From Candidatus Gracilibacteria bacterium CG17_big_fil_post_rev_8_21_14_2_50_48_13 (GTDB lineage Bacteria; Patescibacteriota; Gracilibacteria; 1-14-2-50-48-13): a DNA stretch of 35,557 nucleotides. The translations under genes and the position numbers were made by a program. This document shows, one piece after another, positions 8,916 to 17,250 of this stretch. Each line of letters opens with the position of its first letter. Position 1 is the stretch's first letter. The notes beneath the pieces are model-generated. The model was not told the DNA's origin and searched no databases. It saw nothing but the letters and a program-made list of their open reading frames with translations. The DNA lies in assembly GCA_002783265.1 (NCBI GenBank), contig PFFG01000004.1, forward strand, positions 1 to 35,557, given 5' to 3'.

Positions 8916-10352
8916 CTACCCAAAACTCCCCACCAAGCCCACAAGCGCCAGAGCCAGGAAGATGGGCAAAAATGTCTTTTGCAAGACGGCTCGGTAATCG
9001 GGCAGATGCACAATGGCACAAGCGGCAATGATGTTAAACAGACAGATGGCATTCCCAAGGGCCGCCCCTGTGGTTTGCAGAGAAAGCACCCAGTCCGTCG
9101 AGGTCCCCAGCTGCTGTGCGATTTGTATCTGTGTCGGCGCGAGCATAATATTGGACACGGTGGCGCTGCCGGCAACAAAGGTGCCCAAGGCACCAAGAAA
9201 TGGGCTCAGGAAGAGTGTTCCTTGACCGAAAGAGGCAAGTGCTTGTCCAATTTCCGCCACCATGGAAAAGCCCCCTATTGGCGTATAGGCCATGATCTTT
9301 GCAAGCATCAGAAGGGGAAAGAGAAGGAGGGCAATTTTTCCTGTTTTTGAGAGCACGGGAGGGAGGAGATTGCGTTTTCCTTTTGTCTGCCAAAGGAGCA
9401 CGAGACTCACCAAGATAAAGGCGAACAAGGGTGAACTGCCTATCATCAGTGTGGTGGAGACATTGGAGCCGAAGAGGTTCGTGAAGGTCACGGCACTTTC
9501 TTTGATGAAGCGAAACCATGGGAGTTTCGGGAGGAAGAGTAAGGCCAAAAGCGCAGCATAGGGCAGCCAAGGGCGAAGGCGCAGGGGTGTTTTTGCATGC
9601 CATGAGCGCATAATCAGTGCGAGAATCGTACCGAAGGCCGCAAGAATGGAGGCGAGCGACGGTACAAAAAAACTACAGAGGAGAAAGAGCAGAAATTGCA
9701 GGCCGAGCCACCCCGCCAAGGGAAGAAGCGGGACTTTCGCCTGAGTTTCCTTGCTGTATGCGCGCAACAGCAACGGCATAATGACGACGCTCGATAGGGC
9801 AATGAGCAGGGCCGACTGGGCGCTTATGTTCGCGACCACCTGCTCTGAAAGCTGCAAAGGTTCTTGGAGGCCAAGAATGATGGGGGCGCCGACGGCTCCA
9901 AAGAGCACAAATAGTGCATCAAACAGGAGGACAGAGGTCACGGAGAGGAGGGCGGGATAGCCTAGTGAGACAAGAATAGGTGGTACTAACGCACCCGGCG
10001 TTCCAAAACCTGCGACGCCTTCAAAAAAACAGGTCATTACGGACGCTATGAGGAAGAAACGCACGTGCGGATTTGGATGTAAATGCGCAGCGGCCTGTTG
10101 TATGTCTGCCAGCCGCCCGCTTGACATCATGGTGCTATGCAGCAGCAGGGCGCCAAAAACGATAAACAGGATCTGCAGGGTGTTCACGGCACTCGATACG
10201 CTGAGAGCGCCCAAAATAGTGCTGTCTCCATCACGGGCAAAGAAAAGGGCCACGGCTGTGAGAAAGCCAAAAAACACCCCCGTTTGTACGCCACGGAAAA
10301 GAGAAAGGGCAATGAGCAGGAGCAGTGGCAAACTAGAAAGGAGGAGTTGCAT
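8916..10352 (-). CDS. L-lactate permease (LctP) family transporter
   Basis: A 478-aa polytopic membrane protein, about a dozen hydrophobic segments. Family signatures are CFFEGVAGFGTPGALVPPIL around residue 109, FLGALGTFVAGSATVSNIML around 384-403, and LQTTGAALGNAICLFNIIAA around 422-441. LctP proteins are proton symporters for lactate and sometimes glycolate in the cytoplasmic membrane. At 478 aa it is shorter than typical LctP (about 550), but the core motifs are intact. In an organism likely to ferment, lactate export or uptake is a sensible role; direction is not deducible. GGAGG lies 17 nt before the ATG, too far for a standard SD. The helicase gene ends 36 bases upstream. Confidence 0.9.
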   Translation of the reverse strand: MQLLLSSLPLLLLIALSLFRGVQTGVFFGFLTAVALFFARDGDSTILGALSVSSAVNTLQILFIVFGALLLHSTMMSSGRLADIQQAAAHLHPNPHVRFFLIASVMTCFFEGVAGFGTPGALVPPILVSLGYPALLSVTSVLLFDALFVLFGAVGAPIILGLQEPLQLSEQVVANISAQSALLIALSSVVIMPLLLRAYSKETQAKVPLLPLAGWLGLQFLLFLLCSFFVPSLASILAAFGTILALIMRSWHAKTPLRLRPWLPYAALLALLFLPKLPWFRFIKESAVTFTNLFGSNVSTTLMIGSSPLFAFILVSLVLLWQTKGKRNLLPPVLSKTGKIALLLFPLLMLAKIMAYTPIGGFSMVAEIGQALASFGQGTLFLSPFLGALGTFVAGSATVSNIMLAPTQIQIAQQLGTSTDWVLSLQTTGAALGNAICLFNIIAACAIVHLPDYRAVLQKTFLPIFLALALVGLVGSFG

Positions 10353-11695: not shown

Positions 11696-12553
11696 TCAAT
11701 TCCAGCCACTCCAACCGCTTTTTGACCAAGACCCCCAGCGGACCTGCAGTTTGGACGCCATGGCTGCTCGTTCGTCTGCAGGGGTTACCATGAGTGTGGT
11801 TGCGGCGACATCTGCAAGCGTCGCCGTTGGTGCCTGAGCGCTGATTGCCAGTGGAGCATGCGCTTTGGGGCCACCTTCCTGGGCAGAAATCAGGTGATGA
11901 AAGGCCCCCCACTTTCGGCGGTAGGTGCCGGAGGTGGCCAGTGCTCCGTCCCAGAGTTCGAGGATACGTTCGTCACCGTGCTCAGTTGGGTCTTCAAGAC
12001 CAAGACGCCAGGCGCCTCCGGATCCATCGCCTCCCGCAACGCGAATATCTCCTCCGCCATCAATCAATACATGGGGACTCGCTGTCAGCAGGATCGGCAT
12101 AAGCCGGTCAATGAGATAACCCTTGCCAATGCCGCCAAAATCCAGAAATTGCCCCGGTGCCAGCGTCAGTGTATGATCGTGTCTTTTAAGCAGGTGCCAG
12201 TCCATATTGATGTGCTGTGACTTTTGGGCGACGGGAACATGCGTCAGAAAGCTCTCCACATAGCCGAAGTGCATGGGAGACGCGAGGGGCGTAAAACGTC
12301 CATCTGTCTGCAGTACATACTTTTCCGCGAGAACAAAGAGCTCCATAAACTCCGGAGTCATGTTCCCGTGCCGGTTCTTGTTGAGCTGGGAGAGTTGGGA
12401 GCCTGGGTCGAAACGGGAGAAGAGTCTGTTGATGCGCATGATCTCCCTGGAGATTTTCTCTGGAAGAAGGGCATCTGGGCGCTCGCTTGCGTACTGCAGG
12501 TTCCATGCTGTGCCCAGGGCTTCGAAGGTGATTTGCTGGAGAGGAAGAATCAT
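11696..12553 (-). CDS. apbE: FAD:protein FMN transferase, ApbE family
   Basis: A 285-aa ApbE protein. Diagnostic parts are FSRFDPGSQLSQLN (45-58), LDFGGIGKGYLIDRL (137-151), LIDGGGDIRVAG (163-174), ATSGTYRRKW (206-215), HHLIS (219-223) and LADVAATTLMV (246-256). ApbE uses Mg2+ and FAD to attach FMN covalently to a Thr or Ser of redox proteins. Most ApbE proteins are exported lipoproteins, but this one begins directly with the first conserved strand and has no signal peptide or lipobox, so it should act in the cytoplasm. It is the last gene of the redox operon, 3 bases after the Ig-like membrane protein gene; its client is probably encoded nearby. Confidence 0.95.
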   Translation of the reverse strand: MILPLQQITFEALGTAWNLQYASERPDALLPEKISREIMRINRLFSRFDPGSQLSQLNKNRHGNMTPEFMELFVLAEKYVLQTDGRFTPLASPMHFGYVESFLTHVPVAQKSQHINMDWHLLKRHDHTLTLAPGQFLDFGGIGKGYLIDRLMPILLTASPHVLIDGGGDIRVAGGDGSGGAWRLGLEDPTEHGDERILELWDGALATSGTYRRKWGAFHHLISAQEGGPKAHAPLAISAQAPTATLADVAATTLMVTPADERAAMASKLQVRWGSWSKSGWSGWN

Positions 12554-12556
12554 GAG

Positions 12557-13093
12557 TTACTTGGCGCGTTTAACGAGAACATAGGTACTGTTTGCATGTC
12601 CGTCTTTATTGACCGCAGAGACGACAATGACATTCATACCGGGAACCAGAGTAAAATCTCCGACACCCTTCACGAGAGGGTTGGGGTCCGTAGCATCTAC
12701 GACCTCTGCACTGACTTGGATATGAGTGGTATCTGCGCTGAATTCTTCACTCTGCTGAGGAGAAACAATGCGAAGGCTAGGCCCCAAAGGGTCTGAAATC
12801 AGCGTTTTTGGGACGTCCCCTGCCTGCAGCTGTGACGCTTGCTGTTCATAGATATTCGCGCTCTGTATTGACTGGATATTCTGCAGAGAGAAGTCGGGCG
12901 CATCGACAGGTAGTTGAGGTATTGTACTTTGCCACGACGGCAGGAAAGATCCAAACATCCAAAAGCTCAGGAAAGGAAGAGAAACACAGAGCACAATGAC
13001 TTCTCGAAGCGGTTTGCCAAAAACATGGATGGTACGCCAAAGGTACAGTGCAAGGAGGGGAATAGTCAGAAAGGCAATGGTCGTATTATGCAT
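12557..13093 (-). CDS. Membrane-anchored protein with Ig-like extracellular domain
   Basis: A 178-aa protein with two N-terminal hydrophobic segments (about 5-24 and 31-52) and a C-terminal domain of about 75 residues (SLRIVSPQQSEEF ... GDFTLVPGMNVIVVSAVNKD ... STYVLVKR). This pattern suggests a beta-sandwich of the glucodextranase-B/bacterial Ig-like kind. With two membrane passes both ends lie on the same side, most likely outside. ATG 13093 overlaps the stop of the ferredoxin-reductase fusion by 8 bp, so translation is coupled. I see no FMN-attachment consensus or cysteine pair in it. It may be an accessory subunit of the membrane reductase; this is inferred from operon position only. Confidence 0.7.
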   Translation of the reverse strand: MHNTTIAFLTIPLLALYLWRTIHVFGKPLREVIVLCVSLPFLSFWMFGSFLPSWQSTIPQLPVDAPDFSLQNIQSIQSANIYEQQASQLQAGDVPKTLISDPLGPSLRIVSPQQSEEFSADTTHIQVSAEVVDATDPNPLVKGVGDFTLVPGMNVIVVSAVNKDGHANSTYVLVKRAK

Positions 13094-14612
13094 GGGTGGG
13101 GCGTAAACGGTTGAGCGCAAAGGCAAGAAGTGACAGTGTGAGCACAAGGATCATGCCAACCAGCCCGGCAGTTTTGCCAAAACTCGCCCAGACATACCAA
13201 GCGCCACTGAAAAAATACACATAGGACAGACGCTGCAGGCGTTTCCAGTTAGGGCCGAGCAACTTTTGGCTCAGAGTATTGGAGGTCAAAAGCAGAATGA
13301 CGCCGGTCAGTTCCCCCATGTGCGCGGCAAACTGGTTCTTCTCAAAGCTCCAGTAGGCAGCTTGAAAATAGGTGCCGAGAAAATCAAAACCTAGCGATGT
13401 GTAGTGAATCAGGGCACTTGCTGCAACAACACTGGCAGAAAAAATGCCCAGTTCCTTGCGAAGGGGGATAAGCCGAGGGAAGAGACGATTTTTGGGAAAA
13501 ATATCTCGCAGTGGTCGTAGTATCATCAAAAGTATCACGGCGTAGAGGCTGAGGTCCCAAAGAAATGCTGTCCGTTCCGGCACAAGGGCGAGCATTGGTG
13601 TAAGGGCGGATGCAATCAGCAAAAGACGTTGAAACCAGGGGAGGAGAAATCGAAGGGCGATTTCACCATCCGAAGCTCCTGTTTCCCTGGAACTTGCCAA
13701 GTGTGCAAGGGAGTCTGCAGGAGCAGCAGAGACAAAATGCTCGTAATGAATGCGTTCCTCTGGAACGCCTTGTGCACGGAGAATGGCCCGCACATCGTCG
13801 ACCATCCTTGGATTACCACAAACATATATGTCTGCCTTGGTTGTGAGATGGTCGTCCATCTTCTTAAGCGCATCTGTGACGCGCCCCTGCACAACGCCTG
13901 GCATGCTCATCGTTTCCTTGGAAAGACAAATTGTGGTCGTGACTGCAGGATACGCGCGCAATTCTTCTGCATAGAGTATGTCGTCTTTGGTTGCTCCGCC
14001 AAAGAGTACATGACAAGGGATGTTGGCTGGGGTTGCCTCAATCATAGCCATGATGGGAGCTATACCCGTGCCCGTTGCTATGTAGAGCTTAGGTCGCGAT
14101 GTTTGCTCCAAGCAAAAGGAGCCCAGACCAGCTTGCAGTGTGATGTGAACATCCTTTGCGAGCGATTGCAGGACGGCACTACCACGACCGTTGGGCAGCA
14201 TTTTTATACAAAACCGTATAATTCCGTTGCGCCACGAACGAATAGAATAGCAGCGGGCAAATTCTCCTGCTGCATCCTGGAGATGAAGCGACGCAAACTG
14301 GCCTGGAGTAAACGTTCCTTCCGTTTCTGTGCGAAAATCAAACTCCAAGACACCCCGTGCCTTTTGGCGCTTTTCGACAAAGAAGGCCTGGATTTCTTGC
14401 TGCGTTGCAGTAGGGCGGGCGGGATCATTGTCTTCAACAGCGATGACTTGCACGGGGCAATTGCGAGCTGCCTCATAAATTGCAGCTCCGTTTGTCTGGT
14501 AGTCGCTGTTAACGACCCATGAGGTCCCTTCAACGCGAAAGATGTTTGGGCACGTGCGCTCGCAGTTTTTGCAGGAAATACAACCTGGTCGTATGGAAAC
14601 TTTGGTGATCAT
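13086..14612 (-). CDS. Ferredoxin / FAD-NAD(P)H reductase / ferric-reductase-like membrane fusion
   Basis: A 508-aa chain with three modules. (1) Residues 1-60: single-cluster ferredoxin, CISCKNCERTCP with C11, C14 and C17 plus C52 (NCPV) as likely 4Fe-4S ligands; C21 is extra. (2) About 75-295: ferredoxin-NADP-reductase-type domain, FAD motif RCYSIRS (120-126), NAD(P) motif GTGIAPIMAMI (181-191) and YVCGNPRMVDDV (263-274). (3) About 322-505: five or six membrane helices resembling the MsrQ/YedZ ferric reductase-like domain, with LTSNTLSQKLLGPNWKRLQR at 442-461. H403 remains, but the usual WKRLHRL histidine is Q460 and the following helix has no His, so normal b-heme ligation looks lost. It probably passes electrons between cytosolic NAD(P)H or ferredoxin and the membrane. 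It is coupled to the secreted protein gene (1-bp overlap, TAATG). Confidence 0.88.
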   Translation of the reverse strand: MITKVSIRPGCISCKNCERTCPNIFRVEGTSWVVNSDYQTNGAAIYEAARNCPVQVIAVEDNDPARPTATQQEIQAFFVEKRQKARGVLEFDFRTETEGTFTPGQFASLHLQDAAGEFARCYSIRSWRNGIIRFCIKMLPNGRGSAVLQSLAKDVHITLQAGLGSFCLEQTSRPKLYIATGTGIAPIMAMIEATPANIPCHVLFGGATKDDILYAEELRAYPAVTTTICLSKETMSMPGVVQGRVTDALKKMDDHLTTKADIYVCGNPRMVDDVRAILRAQGVPEERIHYEHFVSAAPADSLAHLASSRETGASDGEIALRFLLPWFQRLLLIASALTPMLALVPERTAFLWDLSLYAVILLMILRPLRDIFPKNRLFPRLIPLRKELGIFSASVVAASALIHYTSLGFDFLGTYFQAAYWSFEKNQFAAHMGELTGVILLLTSNTLSQKLLGPNWKRLQRLSYVYFFSGAWYVWASFGKTAGLVGMILVLTLSLLAFALNRLRPTHA

Positions 14613-15385
14613 TAGCTTGCGCGTGTTACTGCATGGGTGACCTGCGTGCGAGGGGCAGTTTTTTGCGTAATGACGACGTTATTGGAAGGAGCTGTGACCG
14701 TTGGGAACGTAGAAGCAGGGGTTTTGCTCAGCGCCGGAGCGGCAGTTTGGGAAGACCTTCTCACCACGGTTGGAGGGGTTTTGGCTCTTGGATTTGTTGT
14801 CGCAAAAACATTTCCAGTTGCTGTTGGCTCAATATCTTGAGGGCGAACCGCCGTGAGCGGGCGTACGCGAGGGAGATCGCTCATGGCGAGAACTCCTCGT
14901 AAAATTTCAGACATCCGCCAAAGTGCTTCCAATAGCCAAGCATGTTCTGCCTTATCTAGGGCGGCTTTTTGCTCGGTATTCAAGGATGCAAGATCTGAGG
15001 GTATGCTATAGAATTTAGGAGCACGAAGGGAAACCGGCAGTGTTTTTGGAGAAGTTCGGTTTGTTGAAACCGTTCTCGAAGGTGGATTCGGTGCAGTTGA
15101 GGTCTTTTTCTCTGTAGGAACCGGAGGGGTAACAAAAATCGGTGTGGTGATTTCAACCTCCTTTCTCGGAATATCAAGTGCAGGGCGTTCCTCTTCTTCA
15201 TCACTTTCCCGTTCTTCTTCCGTAGAGCGGAATTGCTCTTCCTCACCATCATCCTGGTCGTGCCCAGCCCGAGCGACGGGAAGGAGGTTGATGGAATGAG
15301 GAGTGGTGTGAGGGCTAGGTCCCTGGAGGACAAGCGCAAGGGCAAGGGAGCTCACGAGTAGGAGCAAGGAAAGCAATCGTTGCAT
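14612..15385 (-). CDS. Secreted low-complexity protein, first gene of the redox operon
   Basis: A 257-aa protein with a signal peptide (hydrophobic 4-20; likely cut after ARA near residue 40, or earlier). An acidic run follows (DQDDGEEEQ, ERESDEEEERP), then Thr/Pro/Ser-rich segments that should be disordered. The one likely folded segment is helical (LASLNTEQKAALDKAEHAWL, then LWRMSEILRGVLAM; about residues 132-167). There are no cysteines, no heme or metal motif and no known family. The acidic stretch could bind cations. The stop and the next start share one base (TAATG). Upstream lies the CTGAAGA operator at 15425-15445. The role is unknown; position suggests an extracellular partner of the membrane reductase. 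Confidence 0.7.
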   Translation of the reverse strand: MQRLLSLLLLVSSLALALVLQGPSPHTTPHSINLLPVARAGHDQDDGEEEQFRSTEEERESDEEEERPALDIPRKEVEITTPIFVTPPVPTEKKTSTAPNPPSRTVSTNRTSPKTLPVSLRAPKFYSIPSDLASLNTEQKAALDKAEHAWLLEALWRMSEILRGVLAMSDLPRVRPLTAVRPQDIEPTATGNVFATTNPRAKTPPTVVRRSSQTAAPALSKTPASTFPTVTAPSNNVVITQKTAPRTQVTHAVTRAS

Positions 15386-15411: not shown

Positions 15412-15445
15412 ATTCTATACAGTGATTCTGAAGATATCCTGAAGA
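15412..15445 (-). promoter_or_regulatory. Operator-promoter of the redox operon (CTGAAGA direct repeat)
   Basis: Plus-strand half sites CTGAAGA at 15428-15434 and CTGAAGA at 15439-15445, 11 bp apart (one helical turn), within a 21-bp block (15425-15445) that matches 17230-17250 at 20 of 21 positions. On the minus strand, TAGAAT (15412-15417) stands 7 nt downstream as the -10. This is the layout of PhoB/OmpR-type activated promoters, in which the direct repeat takes the place of the -35. The block directly abuts the stop of the histidine kinase gene. Confidence 0.7.
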
Positions 15446-16585
15446 TCATTGGAAAAATACACGGAAGGTGCTTCCTTCACCCAAAGTGCTCCTGACGCGG
15501 ATTTTCCACTGATGTGCATGACAAATATCCTGCACGATGGAGAGGCCCAGTCCGCTACCTCCCGTTTCCAGGTTTCGGGAAACATCCGCTTTGTAGAAAC
15601 GCTCGAAGAGGTGCTTTTGTTGTTCGGGGGTGATACCTATCCCCTGATCTTCTACTTCAAGTATACCCTGAGGAAGCAAACGGACATGAATCGTGGAGTT
15701 GGGCGAGGAAAACTTTATAGCGTTGTGCAGCAAATTGTAGACAAGCCGATCGTATGCAAGAGGCCGAACCCTGGTTGAATAGTCGGCGAACTCTGTTTGT
15801 ATCACGCACTTTTTTTGCGCTGCCATCCCTTCAAGTCTTGCAGCGACGTCTCTGGTCCTTTTTGTGAGTGAAGTGATAAGGAAGGCTTCTTCTTCCTGGC
15901 CTGATGAAACGAGCAAGGATTCCGTGAGATCGGAAAGACGCTGCGTTTCCCCCAGCATATCCGTTAAGATTTCTCGACTATCCTTTTCGGTGATTTTTGG
16001 TTGTCGTAACACAGATTCAGCGCAGGCACTCATGGCGGCAAGTGGATTTCGCAGTTCATGTGCTGCGTCGGCCATAAATCGGTGCTCTTTTTCCATTTTT
16101 TCCTTTATGGGGCGCAGTGTTATACCGGCAAACCAATAACTGAGACCAGCGACAAATACGAGCACCCCTGCATTCAGCCAGAACAGTACCTCAAAGAACT
16201 CTTCAAGGAAATCACCACTATGGTCATCAGATCCATTGGTTGCAGAAAGAACTTTTCCTGTATGGGCATCAATGAGAACTTTGTCTGTGTCAGAAAAATA
16301 GACCTCATACACTTTTCTGTGTTCGCGCTCCTCTCGATCAATTTTTACAATAATCTTTTCTGGAGATTCTTTTGATGCGATATCTCGCACAAGAAGTTCA
16401 GGAATAACTTCACGTGACGTTTGCCACCGCTGCTGGACCTGACCCGCTAACACGAAGGAAAAACTGAGAAGAAGGACGGCTATGATGAGCGTGTAGAGGG
16501 CAGAGAGTTTGCACTGTGCTCGGAAAAACTCATTCTGTTGCCATTTTGTAGCCAATACCCCGAACGGTTTGAAGAGAGCAAGCAT
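15446..16585 (-). CDS. Sensor histidine kinase with PepSY-like extracytoplasmic domain
   Basis: A 379-aa membrane kinase. TM1 is about 30-48 and TM2 about 133-155. Between them, residues 68-118 resemble a PepSY domain (VYEVYFSDTDKVLIDAHTGK, VLSAT). After a short juxtamembrane linker come the H-box ADAAHELRNPLAAM (H176), N-box LLHNAIKFSS, G1 DQGIGI and G2 GGSGLGLSI. No full HAMP is obvious. The start is uncertain: ATG 16585 overlaps the regulator gene by 56 bp; a TTG at 16555 would begin just before the typical KWQQNEFFRAQCKLSALYTL entry. The partner is the OmpR-type regulator upstream. PepSY domains often occur in membrane redox proteins and peptidase inhibitors, which fits control of the adjacent redox operon. 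Confidence 0.88.
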   Translation of the reverse strand: MLALFKPFGVLATKWQQNEFFRAQCKLSALYTLIIAVLLLSFSFVLAGQVQQRWQTSREVIPELLVRDIASKESPEKIIVKIDREEREHRKVYEVYFSDTDKVLIDAHTGKVLSATNGSDDHSGDFLEEFFEVLFWLNAGVLVFVAGLSYWFAGITLRPIKEKMEKEHRFMADAAHELRNPLAAMSACAESVLRQPKITEKDSREILTDMLGETQRLSDLTESLLVSSGQEEEAFLITSLTKRTRDVAARLEGMAAQKKCVIQTEFADYSTRVRPLAYDRLVYNLLHNAIKFSSPNSTIHVRLLPQGILEVEDQGIGITPEQQKHLFERFYKADVSRNLETGGSGLGLSIVQDICHAHQWKIRVRSTLGEGSTFRVFFQ

Positions 16586-17210
16586 GCTGTTTGGAAAAAA
16601 GTTTTCGACGAAGATTTTTAATGTGCACCTCGAGACTGTTACTCCATTGATCTTTACTGTGTTCAAAGCAGTTTTCTAGGAGTTGGCCACGAGTACACGT
16701 CATGTTTTTGTGCTGCGCAAGGTAGGCCAGAATACGAAATTCCATGGGGGTCAGGAGAACCTCCTTGCCCGCAAGCGTGACCGAGTTGTTCTCGAGTGAG
16801 AGGGTTATATCCGTCCCGAGAGCGAGTAGGTCGGGCACGCGTGCACGTGGCCGCCGGAGGAGCGCGTCGACGCGCGCAAGCAACTCATCCATAGAAAAGG
16901 GTTTGATCAGGTAATCGTCACCTCCACTACGTAATCCCTCAACACGTTGATGAGTTTCCCCGAGTGCACTTAAAAACAAAACCGGCGTCTGGATGTTTTC
17001 TTCACGTATGGTTTTACAAAGCGAAAGACCATCGAGGTAGGGAAGCATCACGTCTGAAATGACCAGATCGAGATGATCTGCACGTGTACGCCAAAGATGA
17101 AGCCCATCCGTACCATTCCATGCATACTCCACCGTATGTCCTTCTTGTTTAAGAACACGTTCGAGTGATTTTGCGAGTGTCCGGTTGTCTTCAATAAGGA
17201 GAATATTCAT
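16530..17210 (-). CDS. OmpR/PhoB-family response regulator
   Basis: A 226-aa regulator. The receiver domain has acidic pocket E7/D8, phosphoacceptor D53 (VISDVMLPYLDG), S81 and K103 (YLIKPFS). The C-terminal winged helix has LTPMEFRILAYLAQH, TRGQLLENCF, SNSLEVHIKNLRRKL and VRGIGYKM. It should bind tandem DNA half sites as a dimer. The CTGAAGA direct repeat in front of its own gene and in front of the redox operon is the obvious candidate target. ATG 17210 is preferred over TTG 17216: the -10 (TACACT) ends 6 nt before this ATG, so the transcript may be leaderless. The stop is TGA; the kinase gene overlaps its 3' end. Confidence 0.95.
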   Translation of the reverse strand: MNILLIEDNRTLAKSLERVLKQEGHTVEYAWNGTDGLHLWRTRADHLDLVISDVMLPYLDGLSLCKTIREENIQTPVLFLSALGETHQRVEGLRSGGDDYLIKPFSMDELLARVDALLRRPRARVPDLLALGTDITLSLENNSVTLAGKEVLLTPMEFRILAYLAQHKNMTCTRGQLLENCFEHSKDQWSNSLEVHIKNLRRKLFSKQHACSLQTVRGIGYKMATE

Positions 17211-17216
17211 GAGCAA

Positions 17217-17250
17217 AGTGTACAGCGCAATTCTGAAGATTTCCTGAAGA
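17217..17250 (-). promoter_or_regulatory. Operator-promoter of the response regulator gene (CTGAAGA direct repeat)
   Basis: Half sites CTGAAGA at 17233-17239 and 17244-17250, 11-bp period, in a block (17230-17250) differing from 15425-15445 at one base. Minus-strand -10 TACACT at 17217-17222, again 7 nt from the block. The hexamer is followed by 6 nt and then ATG 17210, so transcription would start at or next to the A of the start codon. It predicts autoregulation. Confidence 0.7.

Follow-up and report, generated by a model that had tools for sequence, protein, structure and literature searches.

Two nearly identical 21-bp blocks stand ahead of a response-regulator gene and a neighboring redox operon in a Gracilibacteria genome, which raises the question of whether one operator serves both promoters and, if so, which protein reads it and to what effect. 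The window, i.e. the whole stretch of DNA that was analyzed, comprises 35,557 nt of contig PFFG01000004.1, with both boxes taken to function on the minus strand. The blocks, at 15425-15445 (ATTCTGAAGATATCCTGAAGA) and 17230-17250 (ATTCTGAAGATTTCCTGAAGA), are identical at 20 of 21 bases, and our sequence check agrees with the initial annotation that CTGAAGA occurs twice in each of them, at an 11-bp period. Along the minus strand, the genes run in the order ABC exporter pair, regulator, kinase, exported protein, reductase, membrane-anchored protein and ApbE, and the features that matter here are:

20737-17269, minus strand: ABC exporter pair, upstream neighbor of the regulator gene
17233..17250, minus strand: predicted operator 1, TCTTCAG-GAAA-TCTTCAG, preceding the response-regulator gene
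17217..17222, minus strand: -10 hexamer TACACT, set off by N10 from the second half-site of operator 1
16530..17210, minus strand: OmpR/PhoB-type response regulator, 226 aa (Response_reg PF00072, 2.7e-26; Trans_reg_C PF00486, 8.6e-21)
15446..16585, minus strand: sensor histidine kinase (HisKA, HATPase_c, PepSY)
15428..15445, minus strand: predicted operator 2, TCTTCAG-GATA-TCTTCAG, preceding the redox operon
15412..15417, minus strand: -10 hexamer TAGAAT, with N10 spacing as at operator 1 and the ATG 26 nt further on
14612..15385, minus strand: exported protein, 257 aa, first gene of the redox operon, with a signal-like N-terminus followed by an Asp/Glu-rich acidic stretch
13086..14612, minus strand: ferredoxin-reductase-membrane protein, 508 aa (Fer4_13, FAD_binding_6, NAD_binding_1)
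12557..13093, minus strand: membrane-anchored extracytoplasmic protein, its ATG at 13093 overlapping the preceding stop
11696..12553, minus strand: ApbE flavin transferase (PF02424, 1.2e-44)

The matches to a receiver and a winged helix place the regulator in the OmpR/PhoB family, as had been proposed, and its recognition helix is SNSLEVHIKNLRRK. The longest kinase ORF runs from 16666, and the likely start, judged by alignment with relatives, is the ATG at 16585, which overlaps the regulator gene. Between its two membrane helices the kinase carries an extracytoplasmic PepSY domain, which is missing from the kinases of the relatives examined, and EFFE, considered with regard to a BqsS-type ExxE iron motif, stands just ahead of the second membrane helix, with a conservation in relatives that is not clear from the alignment. 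In the redox operon, the exported protein matched no Pfam family. Long Asp/Glu-rich stretches like the one it carries (window 14612-15385) recur in otherwise unrelated exported proteins encoded beside such systems (L144:6802-7929, L145:6714-7271 and L150:6728-7330), and may bind cations. The reductase joins a 4Fe-4S ferredoxin and an FAD/NAD(P)H reductase to ferric-reductase-like membrane helices, the membrane part being recognized from the alignment, and homologues of the membrane-anchored protein also come after the reductase in genomes G341 and G024. With ApbE beside a membrane protein that is ferric-reductase-like and linked to NAD(P)H, the operon resembles MsrQ-like flavinylation clusters (PMC8238504), but it falls outside that class, as neither a PF01794 match nor an FMN-binding domain or substrate was found in it, and it differs further in having its own two-component system. 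TGAS, at the linker of the reductase, was considered as a flavinylation target and dropped, since it is not conserved among relatives; no flavinylation-like motif was conserved in the reductase alignment. In the G330 homologue of the reductase (L144:8894-10435) the membrane part precedes the ferredoxin and reductase domains, the reverse of the order in the window protein. Two further observations concern the surroundings: an L-lactate permease family protein (PF02652, 4.3e-52) lies near the redox operon, at window positions 8916-10352, and in G317 (L146:3-2202) homologues of the ABC exporter, with 51% identity, are found a few kb from that genome's own box-carrying regulator-kinase pair, as in the window.

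Read on the coding (minus) strand, both promoters have the form TCTTCAG-N4-TCTTCAG-N10-(-10 hexamer), i.e. TCTTCAGGAAATCTTCAG-N10-TACACT for the regulator and TCTTCAGGATATCTTCAG-N10-TAGAAT for the redox operon, with a gap of exactly 7 nt between block and hexamer at both sites (TACACT at 17222-17217, TAGAAT at 15417-15412), again as first annotated. The -10 hexamers themselves are imperfect (4/6 for TACACT, 5/6 for TAGAAT), and at 15412 an overlapping TATAGA register is also present. The -35 position is occupied by AGGAAA at the regulator promoter and AGGATA at the redox promoter; neither has a -35 hexamer, and because of this a sigma-70 scan demanding both -35 and -10 called no promoter at either site. 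Both promoters therefore show the class II layout of the pho-box type, in which an operator of direct-repeat half-sites, here at an 11-bp period, takes the place of the -35 near the -10. The regulator ATG, at 17210, lies only 6 nt past TACACT, so that the regulator mRNA is probably leaderless. Just ahead of operator 2, a hairpin and a T-rich stretch at 15445-15480 overlap the 3' end of the kinase gene and could terminate the regulator-kinase transcript; terminator-like hairpins in general, including that of the kinase 3' end at 15478-15464, were no more frequent than in shuffled background, and the window matched no RNA family in Rfam.

An identity of 20/21 bases might arise if the second block were a recent, functionless duplicate of the first promoter. 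Identity between the two sites, however, drops to background at once outside the 21-bp block, while the -10 spacing and the absence of a -35 are maintained, and four relatives (G330, G296, G317 and G217) also have distinct boxes at two genes, with differing spacers; a duplicate of this kind is extremely unlikely.

How exceptional the two sites are was judged by pattern search of the 1.28-Mb genome, with a reversed-pattern control. CTGAAGA-N4-CTGAAGA occurs twice exactly, never with one mismatch and 12 times with two, where chance alone would give about 0.01 exact copies (2 x 1.28e6 / 4^14). The earlier statement that the window holds no third tandem copy was borne out, and the same is true of the whole genome. 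Up to three mismatches, the window contains 6 matches vs 3.7 expected, a background from which the two exact copies stand apart. When a -10 was required as well, the genome gave 2 exact matches and nothing at one mismatch; at two mismatches there were 40, vs 38 for the reversed control. A surplus of random genome matches unrelated to promoters would have spoken against an operator, and there was none; since weaker third sites likewise show no excess over the control at two mismatches, the regulon appears limited to these two promoters, which seem to be the whole of it in this genome. A matrix built from relatives only ranks the window sites first, at 21.8 and 21.5 bits, with the next site in the window at 13.3.

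The relatives were sampled independently of the motif, in that regulator homologues were chosen by protein similarity and their flanking DNA was then read. The nearest relatives found belong to the same class, with none of the same order among the relatives searched; a regulator search in genome contigs returned only diverged homologues of other phyla, which were left out. At loci with a close regulator (same class, window included), CTTCA-N6-CTTCA followed by a -10 box was found 12 times in 115 kb vs 0.05 expected, so that relatives retaining the regulator have retained the motif as well. Loci with distant regulators gave one strict match in 205 kb (in G024), and reductase-operon loci without a close regulator gave none in 227 kb. 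The spacing from box to -10 is mostly N10, within a range of N9 to N11. G330, a genome of another family, is the only other one in which regulator and ApbE/reductase occur together under the box. Its genes for regulator, kinase and ApbE/reductase lie side by side, and both downstream units carry a box, ACTTCAG-N4-TCTTCAG-N10-TATAAT before an S-layer-domain (SLH) gene right behind the regulator-kinase pair, and ACTTCAG-N4-GCTTCAG-N10-TATAAT before ApbE and the reductase. The redox operon is thus the local target of a box that, in relatives of other families, is also found ahead of genes for DUF347 membrane proteins, S-layer proteins and a secreted PepSY protein: it stands before the regulator in G144, divergently before the regulator and a secreted PepSY protein in G217, at the regulator and a DUF347 gene in both G296 and G317, at the head of an operon whose last gene is the regulator in G175, and before an S-layer/Ig protein behind the kinase in G024, the regulator of which is linked but more diverged (helix SDTIEVHISAIRRK).

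Whether the box follows the DNA-reading surface of the regulator was examined phylum-wide, in a sample in which 57 of 380 genomes had a regulator at E 1e-45 or better; class and phylum samples combined gave 96 regulators with readable starts, and 100 bp was read upstream of each. CTTCA-N6-CTTCA was present upstream of 13 of the 21 regulators with the helix [ST]Nx[IVL][DE]VHxKN (SNxxxVHxKN) vs 0 of the 75 others (Fisher p 5e-11), with 0.03 expected in resampled sequence. Eight helix-matched regulators have no strict box directly ahead of them. For about half of these, a box occurs at a different place in the locus (in at least G330, G175 and L242, in front of a different gene or operon) or departs from the strict form by one mismatch (L230), and the DNA examined for G034, G339, L231 and L275 contained no box. 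Regulators with a PNTVE-type helix have TCAG-N7-TCAG instead (TCTCAG repeats at 11 bp), found upstream in 18 of 33 vs 2 of 63 others (L230-L292, phylum-wide sample), and the two exceptions are the CTTCAG boxes of the window and G144, which match TCAG-N7-TCAG as well. Perfect 6-mer pairs upstream of regulators have a period of 11 in 25 of the 96, and any other period in 0 to 3. In both class-wide and phylum-wide samples TANNNT lies 10 to 12 nt beyond the box core, and the box goes with the type of recognition helix. In 31 of the 96 (window 17208-17222 included) a -10-like hexamer precedes the start codon by exactly 6 nt, the commonest spacing, suggesting that regulator mRNAs of this phylum are probably often leaderless. 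Because the SNxxxVHxKN regulators cluster, on a poorly supported tree, the association of helix and box does not amount to many independent events; a tree test of independent co-change had too few supported pairs, and the association reflects a conserved operator carried along with the regulator lineage.

The boxes could in principle belong to another transcription factor of the genome, the kinase-regulator neighborhood being incidental. This would not explain why they track the regulator lineage across families and classes, why the sampled reductase loci that have no close regulator are free of boxes, or why the type of box shifts with the recognition helix, and we regard it as very unlikely.

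Among known systems, PhoB of E. coli shares the tandem-repeat anatomy and an OmpR/PhoB winged-helix dimer as reader, and at phoA a gap of 10 nt likewise separates box and -10. In the pho box of E. coli, a 7-bp unit with 4 bp behind it occurs twice in direct repeat, giving an 11-bp period (PMC2648988). Its consensus, CTGTCAT, differs from the half-site found here (TCTTCAG/T), and the kinase and targets here are without a phosphate link. The PmrA/BasR box is likewise built from tandem half-sites, of CTTAA type, at an 11-bp period, and its reader has a recognition helix similar to that of the window regulator. BasR chains match the full-length regulator at 1.4e-30, but CTTCA replaces CTTAA, and kinase and targets are different. 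By sequence, the nearest solved DNA-binding domain is that of CarR (9yfa, which from its name and sequence we take to be a P. aeruginosa protein), with the helix SNVIEVHVNHLRRK against SNSLEVHIKNLRRK and a 46-bit match confined to the domain. BqsR of P. aeruginosa is an activator with the operator TTAAG-N6-TTAAG (PMC4682146), and the partner kinase in BqsRS senses Fe2+ via an ExxE motif (PMC12666569). Written as direct-repeat pentamers, TTCAG-N6-TTCAG, the window boxes have equal spacing and one mismatch per pentamer, an A/C change, so that the half-site is closer to BqsR/CarR than to the pho box. The differences are the PepSY domain of the window kinase and the number of sites, P. aeruginosa having 432 candidate operators when up to two changes are allowed, vs two here.

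The sign of the regulation has to be weighed as well, given that OmpR-family regulators can repress from positions overlapping the polymerase site. The boxes do overlap that site, and dimers bound over -40 to -23 might block polymerase, in which case the regulator would repress both its own gene and the redox operon. We consider this improbable: a bound dimer would have no -35 hexamer to cover, and for the same reason the promoters would hardly be active without an activator; the distance from core to -10 is mostly 10-12 nt in the relatives, as sigma contact would need; and the pho box of E. coli usually lies near the -10 and substitutes for the -35 region (PMC4971064). The missing -35 and the maintained spacing to the -10 thus favor activation. 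Taking all of this together, it is highly probable that both blocks are operators of the regulator at 16530-17210, and that it activates its own regulator-kinase gene pair and the ferredoxin-reductase/ApbE operon, as initially predicted; none of the refutation tests that could be computed went against this prediction, which the sequence comparisons support. We infer binding, activation and dependence on phosphorylation. The phosphorylated regulator would bind as a head-to-tail dimer, with one subunit per TCTTCAG at 11-bp spacing, and the bound site, spanning about -40 to -23, would stand in for the missing -35. The dimer would contact sigma and bring in the main RNA polymerase at -10 boxes that are weak by themselves, thereby driving the regulator-kinase operon in a positive loop, together with the adjoining operon for the exported protein, ferredoxin-reductase, membrane protein and ApbE.

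Autoregulated OmpR-family pairs with a tandem operator are a well-known kind of system. What appears undescribed, judging from a few keyword searches of open-access papers, is the sequence of this operator, its distribution among Patescibacteria and its link to an ApbE/reductase operon; for uncultured members of the phylum, the same searches returned no studies of operators. The comparisons connect one operator with a regulator, a helix type and two target promoters, which offers a route to reading small regulons elsewhere in the phylum. They also link an ApbE/ferric-reductase-like system to a dedicated sensor, in a radiation (the candidate phyla radiation) for which flavinylation components have been reported to be strikingly under-represented (PMC8238504). 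More tentatively, Patescibacteria response regulators may share a design in which an 11-bp repeat replaces the -35, feedback is positive and the mRNA often starts at the ATG. The helix would set the repeat (SNxxxVHxKN for CTTCA-N6-CTTCA, PNTVE-type for TCAG-N7-TCAG), making each small regulon readable from sequence, and in this lineage an ApbE/ferric-reductase-like envelope system would answer a metal or redox cue. That the signal is an envelope metal or redox cue is only a guess, prompted by the ApbE/ferric-reductase-like cargo, by the DUF347, PepSY and acidic exported proteins at or near the box in relatives, and by the likeness to CarR/BqsR; DUF347 proteins have been proposed as metal transporters in Frankia (PMC4531530). 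As a separate observation, TGA is read as an amino acid in several families of the class (L099, L104, L111, L112, L145 and L153-L162), where conserved reductase and regulator genes contain many in-frame TGA codons, a reading that fits the Gracilibacteria group.
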